12,915 nt of DNA from an uncultured Paraglaciecola sp. (lineage in GTDB: Bacteria; Pseudomonadota; Gammaproteobacteria; Enterobacterales; Alteromonadaceae), in the NCBI GenBank assembly GCA_905479025.1, contig CAJQKX010000773.1:1-12915 (forward strand). Reading direction: 5' to 3'. Both the position numbers and the translations under genes were made by a program. Each line of letters starts with the position of its first letter. The stretch's first letter is position 1. Below are positions 2,077-12,334 of the stretch, in pieces. Under the pieces are notes generated by a model. That model was given only the letters and a program-made list of their open reading frames with translations. It was not told where the DNA came from and did not search any database.

Positions 2077-4563
2077 ATGAAGATGACGCCAAAACCAAAC
2101 TTTACGCCGCGAGCACAACAGGCAATTAATGAAGCTAAAAAAGTTGCCCAAAAGTACGGAAATGAGTATGTGACCCTAGATCATTTATTTTTCGGAATGG
2201 TCAGCCTGAACGCTGGAATTCTTAGCGAGATACTATTTTTATTACAAATTGATGACGAAAAACTAAAAGAAAAAATAGAAAAATCTCTGTACATTGTTTC
2301 AGAAAACGAAAGCATTCAGTCTTTTTCGCCGGAGGATATAGACTCAGTGTACGACGAACACTTTCACTTAGTGCTAAAAGTATCAGCTTCTATAGCCGAG
2401 AAGCTAGGACATGAATATGTCGGAATAGAGCATATACTACTAGCTTTATTGAAGTACGAAGAATCTAATATACCCGAATACTTTGAATCATTTAACGCTT
2501 CAGAAAATGATATAATATCTCAAGTAAGAGAATATCTTCATATATCAAAAGACTCCGCTGCAGAAAGACACAAAAAAACAAGACCTATAAAAACCAAAAT
2601 AGCCCCAAAAGAACCAAAAATTCAAAACCTAGAAAAATTTGCAACAAACTTAAACGCAATGGCCTTGCAGGGAAAGTTCGATAGTATTATAGGAAAAGAG
2701 TCTGAGATATATGACGTATGTGAAATACTTTGCAGGAGAACAAAAAATAATCCCGTACTATTAGGAGAGCCTGGGGTGGGGAAAACAGCCATAGTTGAAG
2801 GGTTAGCGCAGAATATAACGAAAGGAGAATGTTCTGATTTTCTTATTAGTAAAATTATATATTCCTTGGACCTAGGATCCCTTATAGCTGGAACTAAATA
2901 CAGGGGGCAGTTTGAAGAAAGGTTGAAATTAATCATTGAAGAAGTAAAAAAGAATAAAGATATTATTCTTTTTGTCGATGAAATTCATACCTTAGTTGGG
3001 GCGGGAAGTGCAGAAGGAAGTATGGACGCCGCGAATTTACTAAAGCCCTTGCTCGCAAGAGGAGAAATAAAGTGCATAGGAGCCACTACGCAAGATGAAT
3101 ACAAGAAATCAATATTAAAAGACGGAGCCCTAGACAGAAGGTTTCAAGCTGTAAAGGTCATCGAGCCAACAAAAGAAGAAGCCAGGGAAATAATAAAAGG
3201 AATCAAGCATAAATACGAAGAATTTCATAGTATTCATTACCCAGAAGAGGTGTTAGATTTAGTGATAGACTTGACCTCTAGATATGTACTCGACAAACAA
3301 TTCCCAGATAAAGCAATAGATATACTCGATCAAGCTGGATCAAAAGTTAAAATAAAAAATATCGAAAGACCTCAGGCTGCAAAAGATATTGAACAGAGGC
3401 TAGAAGACCTAGCTTTAAAAGAATCAAGCTTAAGTTCTGAAGATTTTAGCTCTCACTACTCGATACTGCAAGACGAACAGCTTGATTTGCTAGAAAAGTA
3501 TGACGAGATTATATCCAAATGGGCGAAGAAAACAATGAAGTATAAAATATCTGTAAAGAAAAAAGATATATATGAGGTAGTATCCTCTCGAACCGGAGTC
3601 CCTATTTCAGATATCTCAAAGAAAGATTCAGAAAAAATGCTCGGGCTATTCAACAAACTAAATAAAAAAATAGTAGGTCAGAGAGAAGCGCTGCAAGAAA
3701 TTTCAGAATGCATACTTAGATCCAAGTCAGGACTTCAAGACAGCAATAAACCAGTAGGAAGCTTTCTTCTTATTGGAGCCAGCGGAACCGGAAAAACTTA
3801 TACCGCAAAGTGTATAGCGGAATTTATATACGGAGATAAAAATAAGCTTATACAAATAGATATGAGTGAATTTTCTGAAAAAATATCGGCAAGTAGGCTA
3901 ATTGGCGCGTCTCCAGGATATGTCGGCTATGAAGAAGGAGGAGAGTTAACAGAGAAAGTCAGAAGAAATCCTTACAGCGTTGTTCTATTTGACGAAGTCG
4001 AAAAGGCTCACCCAGAAGTTTTAAACATATTACTGCAAATTTTAGAAGAAGGATCGGTAACAGATAACTCGGGAAGAAAAATCAACTTCGCTAATTGCAC
4101 AATTATATTAACAGGTAATATTGGTAGTGAAAAAGTTGCAAAACCATATATCGGGTTTGGAGAAAAATCGAGCCCCACGAAAGACATGGAAAAGCTTAAA
4201 GAAGAACTAAAGACCTTCTTTAGGCCTGAATTCCTAAATAGATTAAATGAGATAATTTTATTTAAAAACTTCTCCACAAAGGATATTCAAGACATAACCA
4301 AAATAGAAATCAATCACTTATCAAGCAAACTTTCTTGCAAGAAAATAAAGCTTTCTATTACCCCTAAGGTATGCAAACTTATAGCAGAGAAAGCTGAAGA
4401 AGAAAAAATGGGAGCAAGACCAATAAAAAGATTAATTCAGAAGAATATAGAAAATAAACTATCTAAACTAATTTTAAGTAAAGAATTAAAAGAAAATCAA
4501 GAAATAAAATTTTCAGTCTTGAAAGATTCTATTGTATATAATATTACGGAAGGATTGGCTTAA
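2077..4563 (+). CDS. clpC: ClpC-type AAA+ unfoldase/chaperone with intact ClpP-docking tripeptide
   Basis: An 828-residue Hsp100 protein that should form a hexamer, unfold proteins and thread them through its pore using ATP. Domains: two Clp N-repeats (about 9-72 and 95-155); D1 AAA+ with Walker A GEPGVGKT (230-237), pore loop KYRG (274-277), Walker B ILFVDE (297-302) and arginine fingers R354/R355; a short single-wing middle domain (about 430-485); D2 with Walker A GASGTGKT (567-574), pore loop GYVG (614-617), Walker B VVLFDE (635-640), arginine finger R722 and sensor-2 GAR (779-781). The short middle domain and overall length fit ClpC, not ClpB. F457 in SEDF aligns by eye with the ClpC middle-domain Phe that holds the resting state. 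IGF at 692-694 sits where ClpC carries its ClpP-binding tripeptide, so partnership with a host ClpP is inferred; no clpP is in the window. The ATG at 2077 has a weak GAGTG upstream; the ATG at 2083 is an alternative start. The 3' end overlaps the opposing gene by 20 bases. Confidence 0.93.
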   Translation: MKMTPKPNFTPRAQQAINEAKKVAQKYGNEYVTLDHLFFGMVSLNAGILSEILFLLQIDDEKLKEKIEKSLYIVSENESIQSFSPEDIDSVYDEHFHLVLKVSASIAEKLGHEYVGIEHILLALLKYEESNIPEYFESFNASENDIISQVREYLHISKDSAAERHKKTRPIKTKIAPKEPKIQNLEKFATNLNAMALQGKFDSIIGKESEIYDVCEILCRRTKNNPVLLGEPGVGKTAIVEGLAQNITKGECSDFLISKIIYSLDLGSLIAGTKYRGQFEERLKLIIEEVKKNKDIILFVDEIHTLVGAGSAEGSMDAANLLKPLLARGEIKCIGATTQDEYKKSILKDGALDRRFQAVKVIEPTKEEAREIIKGIKHKYEEFHSIHYPEEVLDLVIDLTSRYVLDKQFPDKAIDILDQAGSKVKIKNIERPQAAKDIEQRLEDLALKESSLSSEDFSSHYSILQDEQLDLLEKYDEIISKWAKKTMKYKISVKKKDIYEVVSSRTGVPISDISKKDSEKMLGLFNKLNKKIVGQREALQEISECILRSKSGLQDSNKPVGSFLLIGASGTGKTYTAKCIAEFIYGDKNKLIQIDMSEFSEKISASRLIGASPGYVGYEEGGELTEKVRRNPYSVVLFDEVEKAHPEVLNILLQILEEGSVTDNSGRKINFANCTIILTGNIGSEKVAKPYIGFGEKSSPTKDMEKLKEELKTFFRPEFLNRLNEIILFKNFSTKDIQDITKIEINHLSSKLSCKKIKLSITPKVCKLIAEKAEEEKMGARPIKRLIQKNIENKLSKLILSKELKENQEIKFSVLKDSIVYNITEGLA

Positions 4564-5038: not shown

Positions 5039-5055
5039 AATTACATTTACACCTA

Positions 5056-5574
5056 TTAATTAGAATATTCGTCAAGGCTTGATCCTTGATTAGTTGAAGG
5101 AGAGTCCTTGCCTACTACTTGACTTGGCTTGGCGCCATACAAGTTATATGCATAAACAAGGTCTTTGATTCTTTCTTGAGATTTAGCATATGCGTCAAGA
5201 TACGATTTAGCAGTAACATTTTTATTGGTTCTTTGAATCATAGAGTCTCCCTCTCGGATTACCTGAAAGTCAGAATCTCCATTGCTGCCATCTATCCCCC
5301 TAAGAACTCTCCTGTGGGCCTTCCTGTTATATTCAGAGATATACATCTCTTTAAGTATTGACTGTTCCTCCAGATTTAAACCTTCGGGACTTTCTCCGCT
5401 AAAGCAAGTAAATATTAAGTTGTTTAGCTCGCCCAAATGACCTTCTAGCCAACCAGATATTAAACCTACTTCTGCGTTTCTAACTTCCCCATGAGAATGA
5501 AATCCAATCTCTTGGTCGTAGATATTTACAGCCAATTTGCCTAGGTTTGTATCTGGGAACAGATCGTGTGCCAT
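5056..5574 (-). CDS. Probable head-completion/neck protein, unrecognised family (172 aa)
   Basis: I do not firmly recognise this protein. The first 145 residues appear mostly helical: residues 35-95 (EVGLISGWLEGHLGELNNLI, then an acidic segment and a basic EYNRKAHRRVLRG) alternate hydrophobic and charged positions like the helical bundle of head-tail adaptor proteins. Residues 123-147 form another amphipathic helix. The C-terminal 25 residues are Ser/Gly/Asn-rich and likely disordered. There is no signal peptide, membrane segment or catalytic motif. The ATG at 5574 lies one base after the stop of the preceding gene, so translation is probably coupled. The neighbourhood (after the capsid gene, between two other small proteins) makes an adaptor or neck role plausible, but that is inferred from position and predicted helices only. 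Confidence 0.75.
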   Translation of the reverse strand: MAHDLFPDTNLGKLAVNIYDQEIGFHSHGEVRNAEVGLISGWLEGHLGELNNLIFTCFSGESPEGLNLEEQSILKEMYISEYNRKAHRRVLRGIDGSNGDSDFQVIREGDSMIQRTNKNVTAKSYLDAYAKSQERIKDLVYAYNLYGAKPSQVVGKDSPSTNQGSSLDEYSN

Positions 5575-5575
5575 T

Positions 5576-5995
5576 TTAATTATTCAAGAAATCTATAACC
5601 TTTGAATGCTGTGGGTTAGAAGGGTCAAGCTTAACTGGTTCTCCCATAACTTGAACACTACCTTTTCCGTGAAGGCTAGAATCAAATGCTCTTTTTATTT
5701 TATTTTTTAATACCGTTTTATTTCCAGAAGGGAAAACTCCAACTTTCACAGCAAAGGATTGAAGATCTGTAAGATTCATGTCTTGCAACATGTCAGCGAA
5801 TACGCGTTTATCATTTGTCTTGAATGGATTGATCTTTGCAATCCCTAAAATGTCCTCAAGTTCGCGTGCCTTAGCGACTTGATCTTCATAGCTTTTACCG
5901 TTTGTTTGTTGAAGATTGTCAAGTTTACTTTTCTTTTCTGTAGAAGTTTTTTTCGAAGAAGTAGACCTGCTCGATTTTGTTTTTTTGTTTGCCAT
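5576..5995 (-). CDS. Small basic protein with SAP-like DNA-binding motif (139 aa)
   Basis: The first 25 residues are almost entirely Lys, Ser and Thr, typical of a flexible nucleic-acid-binding tail. A helical stretch follows (about 36-52). Residues 74-105 read LTDLQSFAVKVGVFPSGNK then VLKNKIKRAF, which matches the SAP helix-extended-helix pattern (Leu-x-x-Leu/Phe, hydrophobic-Gly, xxSGxKxxLxxxI). SAP motifs bind DNA in many nuclear and phage proteins; here the match is by eye. It is the first gene after the capsid terminator, with Shine-Dalgarno-like AAAGG eight bases before the ATG at 5995. A role at the head interior or neck, touching packaged DNA, is inferred. A small regulatory DNA-binding protein is the alternative. 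Confidence 0.78.
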   Translation of the reverse strand: MANKKTKSSRSTSSKKTSTEKKSKLDNLQQTNGKSYEDQVAKARELEDILGIAKINPFKTNDKRVFADMLQDMNLTDLQSFAVKVGVFPSGNKTVLKNKIKRAFDSSLHGKGSVQVMGEPVKLDPSNPQHSKVIDFLNN

Positions 5996-7923: not shown

Positions 7924-8664
7924 TTAGTATGAAATTTTAACAGATTCTTTAAAAGTTTTTGCGAATCTATCTTTAAGGGAAACTTGGTCAGAAGAGCTTT
8001 CGTTGTTATTAACAACAGCAGCCTCTTCAACTTCGAGAGAGTCAAGAGCTTCAGAAACTTCGTCTGAACTTTCTTCTTGAGCTTCTGATGCTTGAGAAAC
8101 CTCAACTTGTGTTTCTTCTTTTGTTGCGGCTTCGACTGTTTCGAGTCGTTTTGCAACTTCTGAAGCTACTCGATCTTCAAATGCTTTTTGTTCAGCAGCG
8201 ATGAAATCTTTATTTTTATGTTTCCAAACCTTGGCTAGTTTTTCTTGGTATCCAGCGAAACTCTCTTCAGTTTCGTCGAGACTAGAAAGCTCAGACGCCA
8301 CAATTTTGGAATCTTCTTCATCAAGCTCATAAACTTCATTCAAGAGCTCCATGCGTGAATTAAATCTAACCTCAGCTTCGCGAGCTGCATTTTCTTCTTC
8401 AAGAGAAGTCAACTTTTCTTTTGTTGACTGTAGCTGTTGTTCAACTTCGCCCATTTTCTCTTGAAGAGAATTTTGAGCCAGAACAGCTTCTTCTTTTTCA
8501 GCTTTAGCTTTTTCGAGATCGGCGACATATTGTTCACCTTTCTCTCGGATAGCTTCGATAAAAACTTTGGAGATGCTTGCGACACTCTCTTCAGAAAAAT
8601 CTTGGCTGCCAAGCTTTTCGTCTAAAGCTGCTCGGAATTCATTTATAATTTGATCTTTATCCAT
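7924..8664 (-). other. Possible nested scaffold reading frame (internal ATG, 246 aa)
   Basis: An in-frame ATG at 8664-8662 falls exactly at the end of the polar linker between the protease-like and coiled-coil parts, so initiation there would yield a free scaffold MDKDQIINEFRAALDEKLG and onward. Lambda produces Nu3 this way inside C, and related phages do likewise. No convincing Shine-Dalgarno precedes the codon (the upstream bases read AAAGAACC then an AT-rich spacer), so it is a hypothesis resting on position. Alternatively the free scaffold is released by proteolysis, or is not made. Confidence 0.3.
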
Positions 8665-9522
8665 AATAGTATTATTAGGTTCTTTGTTTAGTACATTTTC
8701 TTTGGGTGAATGGGAAGTTTTTTTACTTCTTGTAATTAATTGGTCGATCGGCTTATTACTGCTTGACACTTCAGGCGTGGATTTTCCTTGGTCTGCGATA
8801 AGACCTTTTACATCTGCAGCAGGGTTAGAAGTAAAGCCTATACCTAAGGGGTAAATTTCTCCTACGATAAGTCGGTTAACTTTTCTTCCGTCTTTTAAAA
8901 GCCCTTTTCCTCCTAAAGATTTTAAATAAGGAGAATAAGCCTCGACTTCTTGAGGGTCGGAGATAATTGTCGAATCGCACAAATCATCACCTCCTACAGA
9001 AATAACGTAATCATTAAAACCTACCTCCCAGCTAGCAGAAACAGTTGAGTAGTAATCGCTGTCTTCATCAGTAGAACTTAAAACAAGGTCGGAAAACTCC
9101 TTGCTTGCTGTTTTATAAACTACAGCTGCGAGCGCAATATTGTAAGCATTCTCTTCAATTAAAGCTTCATCGTCACTCATCAAAGAGGAGGAATCATCAT
9201 ACTTTGAAAAGCCTGCGGAAACAATATGGCCAACAATCTTATCTCGATCATGTTCTATATTAGTAGGCTTGTGAATAAAAAAATCTTTAATTTTTACCGC
9301 CGCTTCACTATCTATACCATCTCCATTTTTATTAAATTTATTTACCACTGCAGCATTAAAAGCAACTCCAAGAAGGTCAATATTTTTTTCCAAGTTTATA
9401 TCTTGAGGAATTAAAGGTCTAAGAGATTCCAATGAAGCTTTACTAATTGAGGACTTCTCGATGTCGCTTGAAGCGAAAACTACATTATCAAAAGTTGCGG
9501 TGTATTTATATTTTTTAGACAT
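7924..9522 (-). CDS. Prohead protease-like and scaffold fusion protein (532 aa)
   Basis: The N-terminal part (to about residue 245) resembles capsid-maturation serine proteases. NIEHDRDKIVGHI places His91 in the HD-x-x-x-(V/I)-G context of the catalytic His, and STVSASWEVGF gives candidate nucleophiles Ser162/Ser164 in the position of the VSxGF block. A polar linker (about 246-286) follows. The rest is scaffold-like: highly charged, a predicted coiled coil (about 320-385, rich in Glu/Lys/Gln), an acidic disordered stretch (about 450-505), and a basic C-terminal helix KDRFAKTFKESVKISY that could bind the capsid protein. The arrangement recalls lambda C/Nu3. The ATG at 9522 is preferred over an in-frame TTG at 9528; neither has a strong Shine-Dalgarno. 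It lies 17 bases after the terminase stop and upstream of decoration and capsid genes, the standard place for protease and scaffold. The protease assignment is by motif and position; the catalytic Ser is not certain. Confidence 0.72.
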   Translation of the reverse strand: MSKKYKYTATFDNVVFASSDIEKSSISKASLESLRPLIPQDINLEKNIDLLGVAFNAAVVNKFNKNGDGIDSEAAVKIKDFFIHKPTNIEHDRDKIVGHIVSAGFSKYDDSSSLMSDDEALIEENAYNIALAAVVYKTASKEFSDLVLSSTDEDSDYYSTVSASWEVGFNDYVISVGGDDLCDSTIISDPQEVEAYSPYLKSLGGKGLLKDGRKVNRLIVGEIYPLGIGFTSNPAADVKGLIADQGKSTPEVSSSNKPIDQLITRSKKTSHSPKENVLNKEPNNTIMDKDQIINEFRAALDEKLGSQDFSEESVASISKVFIEAIREKGEQYVADLEKAKAEKEEAVLAQNSLQEKMGEVEQQLQSTKEKLTSLEEENAAREAEVRFNSRMELLNEVYELDEEDSKIVASELSSLDETEESFAGYQEKLAKVWKHKNKDFIAAEQKAFEDRVASEVAKRLETVEAATKEETQVEVSQASEAQEESSDEVSEALDSLEVEEAAVVNNNESSSDQVSLKDRFAKTFKESVKISY

Positions 9523-9539
9523 ATACAAAAATCTTACAC

Positions 9540-11411
9540 TTAGTTTATAAACATGGGAGTAAAAGTATAATTCACGTTATTAACTTTAGAGTTCATTATA
9601 TCATAGTAAAGTTTAATCATCCAATTGCCAAGTATTAATGCAGAATAACTATCTTTTCTCGCTTTTTCTGGGCCGGTTTGACGCTTTAAACTAGGAGGAA
9701 GATCAAACGTTTGAGTTCCTCCTGCAGAAGTAGATATCTGAATTAGAGAGCATTGAGTTTTAATAAGATTCATCATATCAAATTGATGCTCAACAAAGTC
9801 AATCATTTTCGCTGCATTTGTTTGGCGCTCTAAACTTTGAGATGTTCTTAAAAATTTTAAATCCTGAATTGGTATTTTTTTATTTCTTTGTTCGTTATAA
9901 GCATCATCAATTGCTCTTGCCCCAAAGAATATCCGATGATGATCAAAGTTGGCCTGAAGCAACTCGTTCGCCAACCTAATCCACTGACTAGTAGGTTTGC
10001 GCAAATAACAAATCGTTTTATCTTCTAAATTATATTCTTTTTTTCCTTCTATTATTTTTTCTTGATAATGTTCTAAGTCATCAAAGTTAGTATTTAAACA
10101 TTTTATATTCATTTTATTTTTCTTGAACAAACTACTTTCATTACAAGCATTAATAAATTGTACTCCTCCATTATAATCTCCAACAATAGATACAATATTA
10201 AAATGAGTAAGTAAATAATAAAAATAAAAAATATGTTGTTTTAAATTTGTGCCGCTTAAAGCGTAGCTATGCACGACAGTCCCAATTTTCTTGTCGTCGT
10301 TAAGCTTGATTACCATCATGGCAAAATCATCGCTACTTTCGCTTTCTGCCCAACTCGGATCAAACGCCAAAATATATTTTTGACCAATTTCCCCGCGCAC
10401 TTCTATAGTCGGAGTCTCTCCATCTTTCAAAGTGCACGAAGCCATCTTGGAGGTCTTAAAATATCCACTGCTATCGTCAGTAAAAATCGAACCAAACTCT
10501 CTGTCAAATTGACTTTGACTCATTGTTGATTTCGCTTGGTCTAAAAGATTTTGGTCGTACAACTGCTTTGGGGCGCAGTCATAACTAAACTGCATGATAA
10601 CCCTGTGAGCATCGTTTTGCTTGGAGCTCCCCTGCCTTATTAAATCTTCAAATTGCTCGTAAGCTTTGTACATGTACTCAAACTTATAACTTGCTGAAGA
10701 AAGAGCTATTAGCTTATTGTTGCGCCAAACGTGCCGCTCGTCTTCGTTCATCTTTCCTTGCTCAATTAAATTCGTCTCAAGGTTAAATAAAGCCTCCCTT
10801 TGAGTCGGGTTTTCTACCACACTCAAGAACGGTATTATAACCTCATTATAAATACGCTCGGGCATAAGGGCAAACTCGTCTATAATAATTCTATGAAAAC
10901 GAAACCCTCGAAGCTTCTCTCCATCTCCAAGAGGTAGAGCTCGGATCCTACTGCTACCGATCTCAAGTAGCCATTCATCATTGCTTTTCGATTTATGCGT
11001 TATACATTGAGCCAGATATGTCGCTCCAGGCTTCGAGGCAATATCTTCAATTTTCTTGAATATCATCTTGGCTTGCCTAAAGGACTTTGAGAGTATTCCT
11101 ATTTCGACTCCTTGATTCATTATAGCATCTAAATATGCATATATGGCAGTAGTGAACGACTTACTCATTCCTCGAGACCATACCCCCATGAAATAATCTG
11201 TTTCAAACATAGCCTTGATTGCCATATGCTGAAAAGGAAAAAGCTGAACTCCGCTAACTAAATCTGCAGTAAATGTGATATTCTCCCTCAAGAACTTGTA
11301 TAGTAAAATCTTAGCTTCTTTTTCTTCTATAAACCCTTTCATTTCTTCAAGCTGCTCATTGAAGTTTTTTTCTTCAGCCCTAGATAATTGATTTCCTGTT
11401 TCCCAAGTCAT
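9540..11411 (-). CDS. terL: Terminase large subunit (packaging ATPase and nuclease)
   Basis: The motor that pumps DNA into the prohead and cuts the concatemer. The 623-residue protein has an N-terminal ATPase and a C-terminal RNase H-fold nuclease. ATPase: adenine-binding region around QLFPFQHMAIKA (56-67); deviant Walker A WSRGMSKS (78-85); Walker B RIIIDEFA (174-181) with D178 and catalytic E179; coupling motif ALSSAS (236-241). Nuclease: D351 in LAFDPSWAE, D412 in IVGDYNGG and D587 in RKDSYSALILG, the three acidic metal ligands. All key residues are present, so the protein should be active. Its start overlaps the preceding stop by one base (TAATG), which indicates reinitiation. The usual partner, a portal gene, does not follow; the protease-scaffold gene does. 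Confidence 0.96.
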   Translation of the reverse strand: MTWETGNQLSRAEEKNFNEQLEEMKGFIEEKEAKILLYKFLRENITFTADLVSGVQLFPFQHMAIKAMFETDYFMGVWSRGMSKSFTTAIYAYLDAIMNQGVEIGILSKSFRQAKMIFKKIEDIASKPGATYLAQCITHKSKSNDEWLLEIGSSRIRALPLGDGEKLRGFRFHRIIIDEFALMPERIYNEVIIPFLSVVENPTQREALFNLETNLIEQGKMNEDERHVWRNNKLIALSSASYKFEYMYKAYEQFEDLIRQGSSKQNDAHRVIMQFSYDCAPKQLYDQNLLDQAKSTMSQSQFDREFGSIFTDDSSGYFKTSKMASCTLKDGETPTIEVRGEIGQKYILAFDPSWAESESSDDFAMMVIKLNDDKKIGTVVHSYALSGTNLKQHIFYFYYLLTHFNIVSIVGDYNGGVQFINACNESSLFKKNKMNIKCLNTNFDDLEHYQEKIIEGKKEYNLEDKTICYLRKPTSQWIRLANELLQANFDHHRIFFGARAIDDAYNEQRNKKIPIQDLKFLRTSQSLERQTNAAKMIDFVEHQFDMMNLIKTQCSLIQISTSAGGTQTFDLPPSLKRQTGPEKARKDSYSALILGNWMIKLYYDIMNSKVNNVNYTFTPMFIN

Positions 11412-12334
11412 TATATTAGTTCTCGATCAAGATAGTACTGAAGGTCTACATCCCAGAGCTGTTTTCCTAAAGTCAATATTTTTGGAATTAAATGCTCAGA
11501 TTCTTCTCTGCTTCCCGTAAAAATGAACTGACAGCTACCTTTGAATTTGTGGGCTAGAGTTCGCATATTATGATAAATATATTTCATGTTTGACATGTGT
11601 GGGGCCCATCGATTATTTTTTTCTATGCTGTTTATGCTTCCTTCAGTTACCACGAACAAATAACTATCAAAGTCTTTCGTGCGTTGAAGTTCGTACTCGA
11701 ATCTATTTAAATTATTTTTACTCAATGTGGATTTAAAATCTTGCTCGCTTTTTCTATCCGCGTAAGTATAATCATAATGTTCCTTGCCTACAGCATAATC
11801 TCCAAAATCTAGCTTAAGAAACTCTGAATTAGGAAACTCTAAAGGCTGCTGCTCTCTTGTGTCTATAAAAATTTTAACCGAATCATCAACCTTTCTTCCC
11901 CATTCTTTTGGCAATCGAGACCCAAACATTGGAAGAACCCCTGCGGCCTTACAAGCTTCGGTATAAGAGCCGAAATGTTTTTGATATAGTTCTATGGTAG
12001 GCATTTCATTTACCTCTAGCTCTATATGGGAAGGTCCGAACTTTAAGTTTTTATCTTCAACCCTATGCTTGAGCATTTTTAATATATATTCCCTAACAGT
12101 TTCATCTGATTGCGCGTTGCACCATTTTAATAACTGATCCCTGTTTGAAAAATCTCGCCCGAAGTATTGTTCTTTATTTTTAAATGGCAATAAATCTCCT
12201 GTATATAGATTATGACGCGGATAGTATTTTATGTAATATTCTGCGAGAGTAACCTTGTGAGACCTCAAGTGCATATGAAGTTTTTTTTCGCTTTCAAATT
12301 CCAGCGAACATATCTTGCAAGCATTAAATGACAT
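11411..12334 (-). CDS. C2H2 zinc-finger / HNH-repeat-like / ERCC4 nuclease protein
   Basis: A 307-residue protein with three visible modules. Residues 6-26 (CKIC, F13, L19, H22, H26) fit the classical C2H2 finger exactly: C-x2-C-x12-H-x3-H with the core Phe and Leu correctly spaced. The following LAEYYIKYYPR is common after such fingers in phage proteins. Residues about 100-137 (including IELYQKHFGSYTEACKAAGV) resemble the small winged-helix repeat found with homing endonucleases. Residues about 153-235 match the ERCC4/XPF nuclease: IDTREQQPL (157-165), FGDYAV (177-182), DRKSEQD (193-199) and VVTEG (228-232). The canonical GD-x-n-ERK-x3-D is present, with Asp replacing the Glu. It should cut branched or double-stranded DNA. 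Its ATG lies 11 bases inside the preceding gene and its stop overlaps the terminase ATG, tying it to packaging. A role like that of HNH proteins paired with terminases is inferred; homing or recombination nuclease is the alternative. Confidence 0.85.
   Translation of the reverse strand: MSFNACKICSLEFESEKKLHMHLRSHKVTLAEYYIKYYPRHNLYTGDLLPFKNKEQYFGRDFSNRDQLLKWCNAQSDETVREYILKMLKHRVEDKNLKFGPSHIELEVNEMPTIELYQKHFGSYTEACKAAGVLPMFGSRLPKEWGRKVDDSVKIFIDTREQQPLEFPNSEFLKLDFGDYAVGKEHYDYTYADRKSEQDFKSTLSKNNLNRFEYELQRTKDFDSYLFVVTEGSINSIEKNNRWAPHMSNMKYIYHNMRTLAHKFKGSCQFIFTGSREESEHLIPKILTLGKQLWDVDLQYYLDRELI

Follow-up and report, generated by a model that had tools for sequence, protein, structure and literature searches.

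A zinc-finger ERCC4-type nuclease in the terminase operon of a large lineage of uncultured phages

The window investigated in this study, a stretch of 12,915 nucleotides from an assembly of an uncultured Paraglaciecola sp., encodes a nuclease directly before the large terminase TerL (Table 1). This nuclease is a fixed core member of the terminase operon in a large uncultured phage lineage rather than a sporadic homing gene, and it co-diverges with TerL under purifying selection. The domains of the protein, its predicted fold and conserved active-site motif, the constant position of its gene and the co-inheritance with TerL form, together with this selection, the observed base of our conclusions, and they suggest that the protein helps to prepare phage DNA for packaging. 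As a specific role, we favour, with a probability of about 0.45, that the nuclease acts together with TerL at the packaging motor to remove branches from concatemers. Packaging motors stall on branched DNA and need a clean end, and to our knowledge the partner nuclease is in many phages unknown or encoded elsewhere. In the widespread uncultured lineage described here, a repair nuclease of XPF/Mus81 type is a constant part of the terminase operon, and with three proteins encoded together, a direct test of how branch removal is linked to packaging becomes possible.

Table 1. Features of the terminase operon in the window and, with locus labels, in related contigs.
Feature	Position	Strand	Basis
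Large terminase TerL, 623 aa	9540..11411	-	PF03237 above cut-off; PHROG 2, E 1.6e-26
C2H2 - HARE-like - ERCC4 nuclease gene, 307 aa	11411..12334	-	Frame, Pfam, PHROG, structure model
C2H2 zinc finger, residues 6-26	12257..12319	-	Pfam and family profile; ligand conservation
Homing-endonuclease-associated-repeat-like (HARE-like) segment, residues 101-133	11936..12034	-	Below Pfam cut-off
ERCC4/XPF nuclease core, residues 153-292	11459..11878	-	Pfam and structure model
Motif DTRE, residues 158-161	11852..11863	-	Alignment
Motif GDY...DRKxxxD, residues 178-199	11738..11803	-	Alignment
Upstream gene, 3' part, 196 of about 350 aa	12324..12914	-	TerS candidate by position only
SNase-like gene	L024:5992-6360 and similar		PF00565 above cut-off
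Beta-helix-like gene	L005:7043-7726 and similar		PF13229 just below cut-off
Sigma-factor-like genes	L002:6201-6968, L183:3063-3737, L146:1293-1991, L211:2161-2838		Sigma-70 region 2

Domain organization and active site

The nuclease frame begins with an ATG and overlaps both of its neighbours, as the first-pass annotation had remarked, by 1 nt with TerL, where its stop codon meets the start codon of the terminase, and by 11 nt with the upstream gene. The N-terminal finger deserves the description as canonical that it had been given, since it displays the exact spacing C6-x2-C9-x3-F13-x5-L19-x2-H22-x3-H26 with ligands that are invariant in 72 of 72 relatives. For the single sequence, Pfam finger models stay below cut-off (zf-C2H2_6 21.1 vs 25, E 3e-4), and the profile of the nuclease family matches solved C2H2 fingers with an E of 4.8e-8. 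The likeness of residues 101-133 to a homing-endonuclease-associated repeat was recovered in a match to PF18780 (E 8.6e-5), whose 23.2 bits remain below the cut-off of 26, and this identity is suggestive only; a precomputed assignment to PF18780 is found for relative P0063 alone among the 120 rows listed. This repeat is also the sole HNH-named Pfam match of the protein, and the eight Pfam families that match at E up to 1 include no HNH nuclease domain.

The catalytic part had been assigned to the ERCC4 family, which is borne out by a match to PF02732 above cut-off (30.9 bits vs 24, E 3e-7) and by a second match to the 'ERCC4-type nuclease' family PHROG 3490 (E 2.8e-7). The PF02732 score falls below cut-off in some relatives, as for L102 with 17.1, and a single-sequence search of the core against PDB sequences returned no match. 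The predicted structure of the core places it within the fold of the XPF/Mus81/Hef nuclease domain. A C-terminal tandem helix-hairpin-helix (HhH2) is absent, as reflected in the lack of a Pfam HhH match and in the only 15 residues that follow the core (which ends at about 292 of 307). The active-site motif GDxnERKx3D is present in the form GDY-xn-(D/E)RK-x3-D. An alignment of 72 chosen relatives, the most distant being 36% identical to the window protein, shows invariance (72/72) of D158, R160, E161, D179, R194, K195 and D199 as well as of all four zinc ligands, and the position of the glutamate in the XPF motif ERKxxxD is occupied by D in 69 and by E in 3 rows, either of which fits a PD-(D/E)xK site. 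The same conservation extends to larger sets. Of 277 non-identical proteins with 295 or more residues, all carry the nuclease motifs; the finger is found in 274 and missed in L109, L114 and L200, which start at contig ends. In a further set, [GA]DY-[DE]RKxxxD is found in 105/105 and the finger in 103/105 proteins, where the start of L352 was probably taken too early and L372 lacks one Cys.

Place in the operon and inheritance

The gene order in related phages, whose comparison had been proposed as a check, shows the nuclease before TerL wherever a locus could be tested in four scans that were anchored on TerL and made no reference to the nuclease. The first found it upstream in 74/74 testable loci in the best 80 of at least 573 relatives, and the others in 28/28 testable of 30 loci, in 77/77 testable in the best 80 of 190 relatives and in 76/76 testable in the best 80 of 199. 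Loci counted as untestable (6, 2, 3 and 4, respectively) are those where the contig ends before the nuclease position, as in L275, which stops inside a gene that by eye is methyltransferase-like. In the first scan, 76 loci offered at least 300 nt before TerL, of which 58 showed the nuclease directly, 16 on closer look, their frames overlapping TerL more widely, being separated from it by a subtilase gene or being incomplete at a contig end, and 2 are cut by contig ends. Since the scans favour nearest relatives and share contigs, these counts are not independent, and the outer limits of the TerL family lie beyond them. No empty site, a TerL without the nuclease, was found in the 255 testable loci of the four scans summed, with some contigs repeated. 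In one of the 77 loci (L239:3000-4000), the nuclease frame is broken in the contig by an apparent short tandem duplication, reflecting either loss or an assembly error.

Scans anchored on the nuclease lead to the same arrangement. TerL adjoins in 64/64 viral loci and, with a distant member as query, in 6/6 loci, one of which is shared with the 64. In contigs of 84,980 prokaryote species, 37 loci matched the nuclease, of which three belong to the family, and all three adjoin TerL, one with a methyltransferase gene in between. A single copy of the nuclease is present in each of ten long records of the lineage (10/10), and no copies at other loci were seen in close relatives, as covered by the family-found loci and these records. 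Sporadic occurrence at many loci, which the first-pass annotation had named as the mark of a mobile homing gene, was thus looked for and not found, and the fixed adjacency in the four TerL scans upholds its view of the gene as part of the packaging module.

The remaining 34 of the 37 prokaryote-contig loci match the C-terminal part of the protein, mostly the nuclease core. A reading frame was found for 23 of them, 21 encoding proteins of 134-209 aa, and the family TerL profile detected no terminase near these 23 within up to four frames on each side. Ten neighbours scanned with Pfam include Toprim, AAA, integrase, resolvase and, once, a tape measure, three giving no match and none being a terminase. 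Such stand-alone ERCC4 genes at prophage-like loci would fit a general replication, recombination or repair nuclease that merely happens to reside in a late operon, as would the ERCC4 gene reported among replication genes of magroviruses (PMC10160649) and that of Bacillus phage A9Y (ORF14), described with repair genes and apart from the terminase genes ORF24 and ORF25 (PMC10535572). For the family described here, this explanation appears rather unlikely, since the gene was never seen away from TerL in the nuclease-found loci (64/64, 6/6 with one shared, and 3/3) and its order is kept through insertions.

The common history of the genes is reflected in their pairwise distances, compared in 102 loci whose genes are full-length and whose TerL sequences differ. 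The correlation of the nuclease distances is r 0.96 with the upstream gene and r 0.88 with TerL, values that 0 of 1000 permutations reached in a procedure that ignores relatedness. With a mean distance of 0.50 compared to 0.35, the nuclease diverges faster than TerL. Between the window and its near relative L003, dN/dS amounts to about 0.03 for the nuclease, 0.02 for TerL and 0.10 for the upstream gene; it ranges from 0.03 to 0.16 over the nine pairs with a value for the nuclease and from 0 to 0.08 over the computed pairs for TerL, most pairs with the window being saturated at synonymous sites and thus without a value. In two of seven further locus pairs, the synonymous change of the nuclease is unlike that of TerL (0.73 vs 0.30 for L009/L022 and 0.09 vs 0.37 for L192/L183), which indicates that local exchange occurs.

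These two pairs, the HARE-like segment and the reported clustering of homing genes near terminases, with a hot spot upstream of HK97-type terminases (PMC10448857), could point to a homing endonuclease directed at the terminase locus, whether still active or domesticated not long ago. Given the lack of an empty site in 255 loci, the covariation of distances and the single copy in 10/10 records, we regard this origin as very improbable, and the absence of empty sites in the four TerL-anchored scans ruled it out as the main reading. A similarly small chance is given to an attack on host or competing-phage DNA late in infection. A host-inhibiting phage nuclease has been reported (PMC12817073), and the predicted DNA-binding parts of our protein would suit such activity; its strict link to TerL and strong conservation would be unlike the turnover of conflict genes.

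Surroundings of the terminase operon

The spacing of the genes is compact in most loci. Between the nuclease stop and the TerL start, the distance is negative in 114 of 167 loci, 0-30 nt in 34, 31-100 nt in 6 and above 100 nt in 13, and between the upstream gene and the nuclease it is negative in 70 of 151, 0-30 nt in 31 and above 100 nt in 50, both counts taking in the window and repeated contigs. The nuclease and TerL are probably translationally coupled. Insertions leave the gene order intact and the nuclease in place, and the order also holds in a clade of about 35% identity. The upstream gene and the nuclease are separated in some loci by a SNase-like and in others by a beta-helix-like gene, the two alternating at a single insertion point, and some loci contain a subtilase (PF00082), a methyltransferase or, by eye, a LAGLIDADG-like gene between the nuclease and TerL. 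The latter was observed in this gap in a single locus (L267, near 3400-4000) and exemplifies a sporadic insertion of the homing type.

The gene preceding the upstream gene matches sigma-70 region 2 in four of four clades tested, three of them above cut-off and the fourth, nearest to the window, at 23.6 vs 24, which defines the order sigma-like gene, upstream helical gene, nuclease and TerL in the four clades. The first of these is perhaps a late sigma factor for the terminase operon. The window contains only the last 196 residues of the upstream protein, whose relatives are mostly about 350 residues long. A model of a near relative is all-helical (pLDDT 80.7), and its comparison with known structures yielded generic coiled-coil matches and none that is specific, a listing that is no evidence of absence. 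The protein had been annotated as a small-terminase candidate, an assignment that our searches did not confirm, where matches to families, solved structures or profiles, as well as to another terminase neighbour, are weak and non-significant. Homology to PHROG 16146 found no support, at a probability of 0.11% with a shallow two-sequence template.

The identity of TerL stands as earlier proposed. Its residues D351, D412 and D587, invariant in 9/9 aligned TerLs, are at positions which we take to be those expected of its own nuclease domain, as in terminases of the T4 gp17 type. With these acidic residues kept, the cutting by TerL need not be taken over by a partner. In one relative (L063:about 5042-5845), the TerL frame is interrupted in the Walker A region of the ATPase by a stretch of about 0.8 kb that by eye is intein-like. 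Downstream of TerL, the window encodes a 534-aa protein without family match (7924-9528); in some clades, the corresponding gene shows weak portal matches (L146:5904-7862 and L183:7614-9488; PHROG 16240, E 0.005 and 2e-4), and the portal gene may thus have moved. On the plus strand of the window, we noted by eye a DNA polymerase III alpha subunit-like gene (3-2060) and one for a ClpA/ClpC-like AAA+ protein (2077-4563).

An embedded packaging site was sought as a region of suppressed synonymous change, with a set of 29 relatives for TerL. No cos or pac site was found at the block of upstream gene, nuclease and TerL in the window, whose overlaps leave no non-coding room for a site between them. 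Where the nuclease gene and TerL begin, synonymous values are low over the first codons, perhaps owing to the overlap of each with its preceding gene. An AT-rich stretch within TerL (10194-10244, codons about 390-406) has a synonymous ratio of 0.46, half of expected (mean 0.97, sd 0.12), and is possibly an embedded DNA element or an effect of codon bias. This lack of a site in overlapping genes, the expected nuclease residues kept by TerL and the usual structure-specificity of ERCC4 enzymes weigh against a partner of the HK97 gp74 kind, where finger and HARE-like segment would bring the nuclease to cos or pac to nick the DNA or help TerL to start or end packaging. Such a role would be consistent with the zinc ligands being invariant in 72/72 rows, with the HARE-like segment and with the place directly before TerL, and it has a precedent in the HNH protein gp74 encoded beside the HK97 terminase, which is reported to promote cos cleavage with TerL (PMC9410871). 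We consider it unlikely, though ahead of the repair function discussed above.

Other nucleases of the lineage were surveyed in the ten long records, which are fragments or of unstated completeness, making absences of resolvases suggestive only. RuvC and RusA were found in 0/10 each, with working controls for both; T7 endonuclease I in 0/10, with no positive control; and endonuclease VII above cut-off in 0/10, with one weak match and control genomes that also gave none. An HNH gene above cut-off is present in 4/10, at least 20 kb from the nuclease, and one of these four proteins is the same that shows the weak, sub-cut-off endonuclease VII match.

A search of 50,697 phage records at E up to 1e-3, which may leave out records very near the window, revealed no isolate of the lineage, the nuclease matches being two records of a single virus, HRTV-25, in the core region. 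A distant TerL is found in 77 phage records. In the three that were opened (MaeS, Staley and TR-TP1; TerL 22-26% identical), no ERCC4 gene precedes TerL, and the role of the nuclease is thus not general to terminases. The gene directly before TerL encodes a PHROG 16146 protein in MaeS and Staley, and in TR-TP1 (L144:5003-5947) a protein whose N-terminal stretch weakly matches endonuclease VII families (E 1e-5). An exchange of ERCC4 for HNH at the same site in sister phages was considered and dismissed, with no clean case in these three.

Proposed role and known systems

ERCC4 enzymes act on branched DNA and are usually structure-specific. In the mechanism that we favour, the protein would be a structure-specific endonuclease of the ERCC4/XPF type, presumably expressed late along with TerL, that would work in contact with TerL at the packaging motor, where it would cut the branches of replicated concatemers such as forks, flaps and unresolved junctions to prevent the motor from stalling. 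The C2H2 finger and the helical HARE-like segment may hold the nuclease on DNA or on the packaging complex and could thereby stand in for the tandem helix-hairpin-helix of cellular XPF/Mus81 proteins. Several features count against debranching, including the missing HhH2, the HNH genes in 4/10 records, the faster divergence compared to TerL and the local exchange, and the invariant finger would point equally to site recognition. Debranching nevertheless ranks before a site-specific cut and the latter before repair, in light of the precedents in T4 for debranching and in HK97 for cos cleavage, and of the acidic residues of TerL itself. A tentative and, to our judgement, somewhat doubtful extension views the terminase as a three-part machine composed of a TerS-like helical protein, the zinc-finger XPF nuclease and TerL, in which the nuclease would be a motor subunit whose finger ties debranching or end cutting to the start of packaging.

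The closest known systems are the nuclease domains of archaeal XPF and Hef (PDB 2bgw, 2bhn, 1j22, 1j24), from which the phage protein differs by the absence of tandem HhH2 and helicase, by its N-terminal C2H2 and HARE-like parts instead, and by the replacement of the motif E by D in 69/72 phage rows. In gp073 of Halorubrum virus HRTV-25, a member of PHROG 3490, the core is 31.5% identical over 42% of the nuclease query; this protein is only 156 aa long, and the surrounding 16 kb contain 37 annotated features without any called terminase. As with the HNH packaging protein gp74 of HK97 (PMC9410871, PMC10448857), a small nuclease gene adjoins the terminase; unlike gp74, the window protein has no match to an HNH nuclease domain, and its action with TerL is a proposal. 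The proposed clearing of branched DNA at the motor would, by analogy, resemble the job of T4 endonuclease VII (gp49). The folds of both HK97 gp74 and T4 gp49 are unrelated to ERCC4, and in T4 the gene for gp49 lies outside the terminase operon. The T4 resolvase gp49 is reported to associate with the portal and to free motors stalled on Y-DNA (PMC9958956, PMC10893049). Among open-licence papers, we found none that links an ERCC4 nuclease to a terminase. Collectively, the parts of this system are known, whereas their combination into a finger-bearing ERCC4 nuclease that forms a constant part of the terminase operon across a broad lineage is apparently undescribed in the open-licence literature searched.
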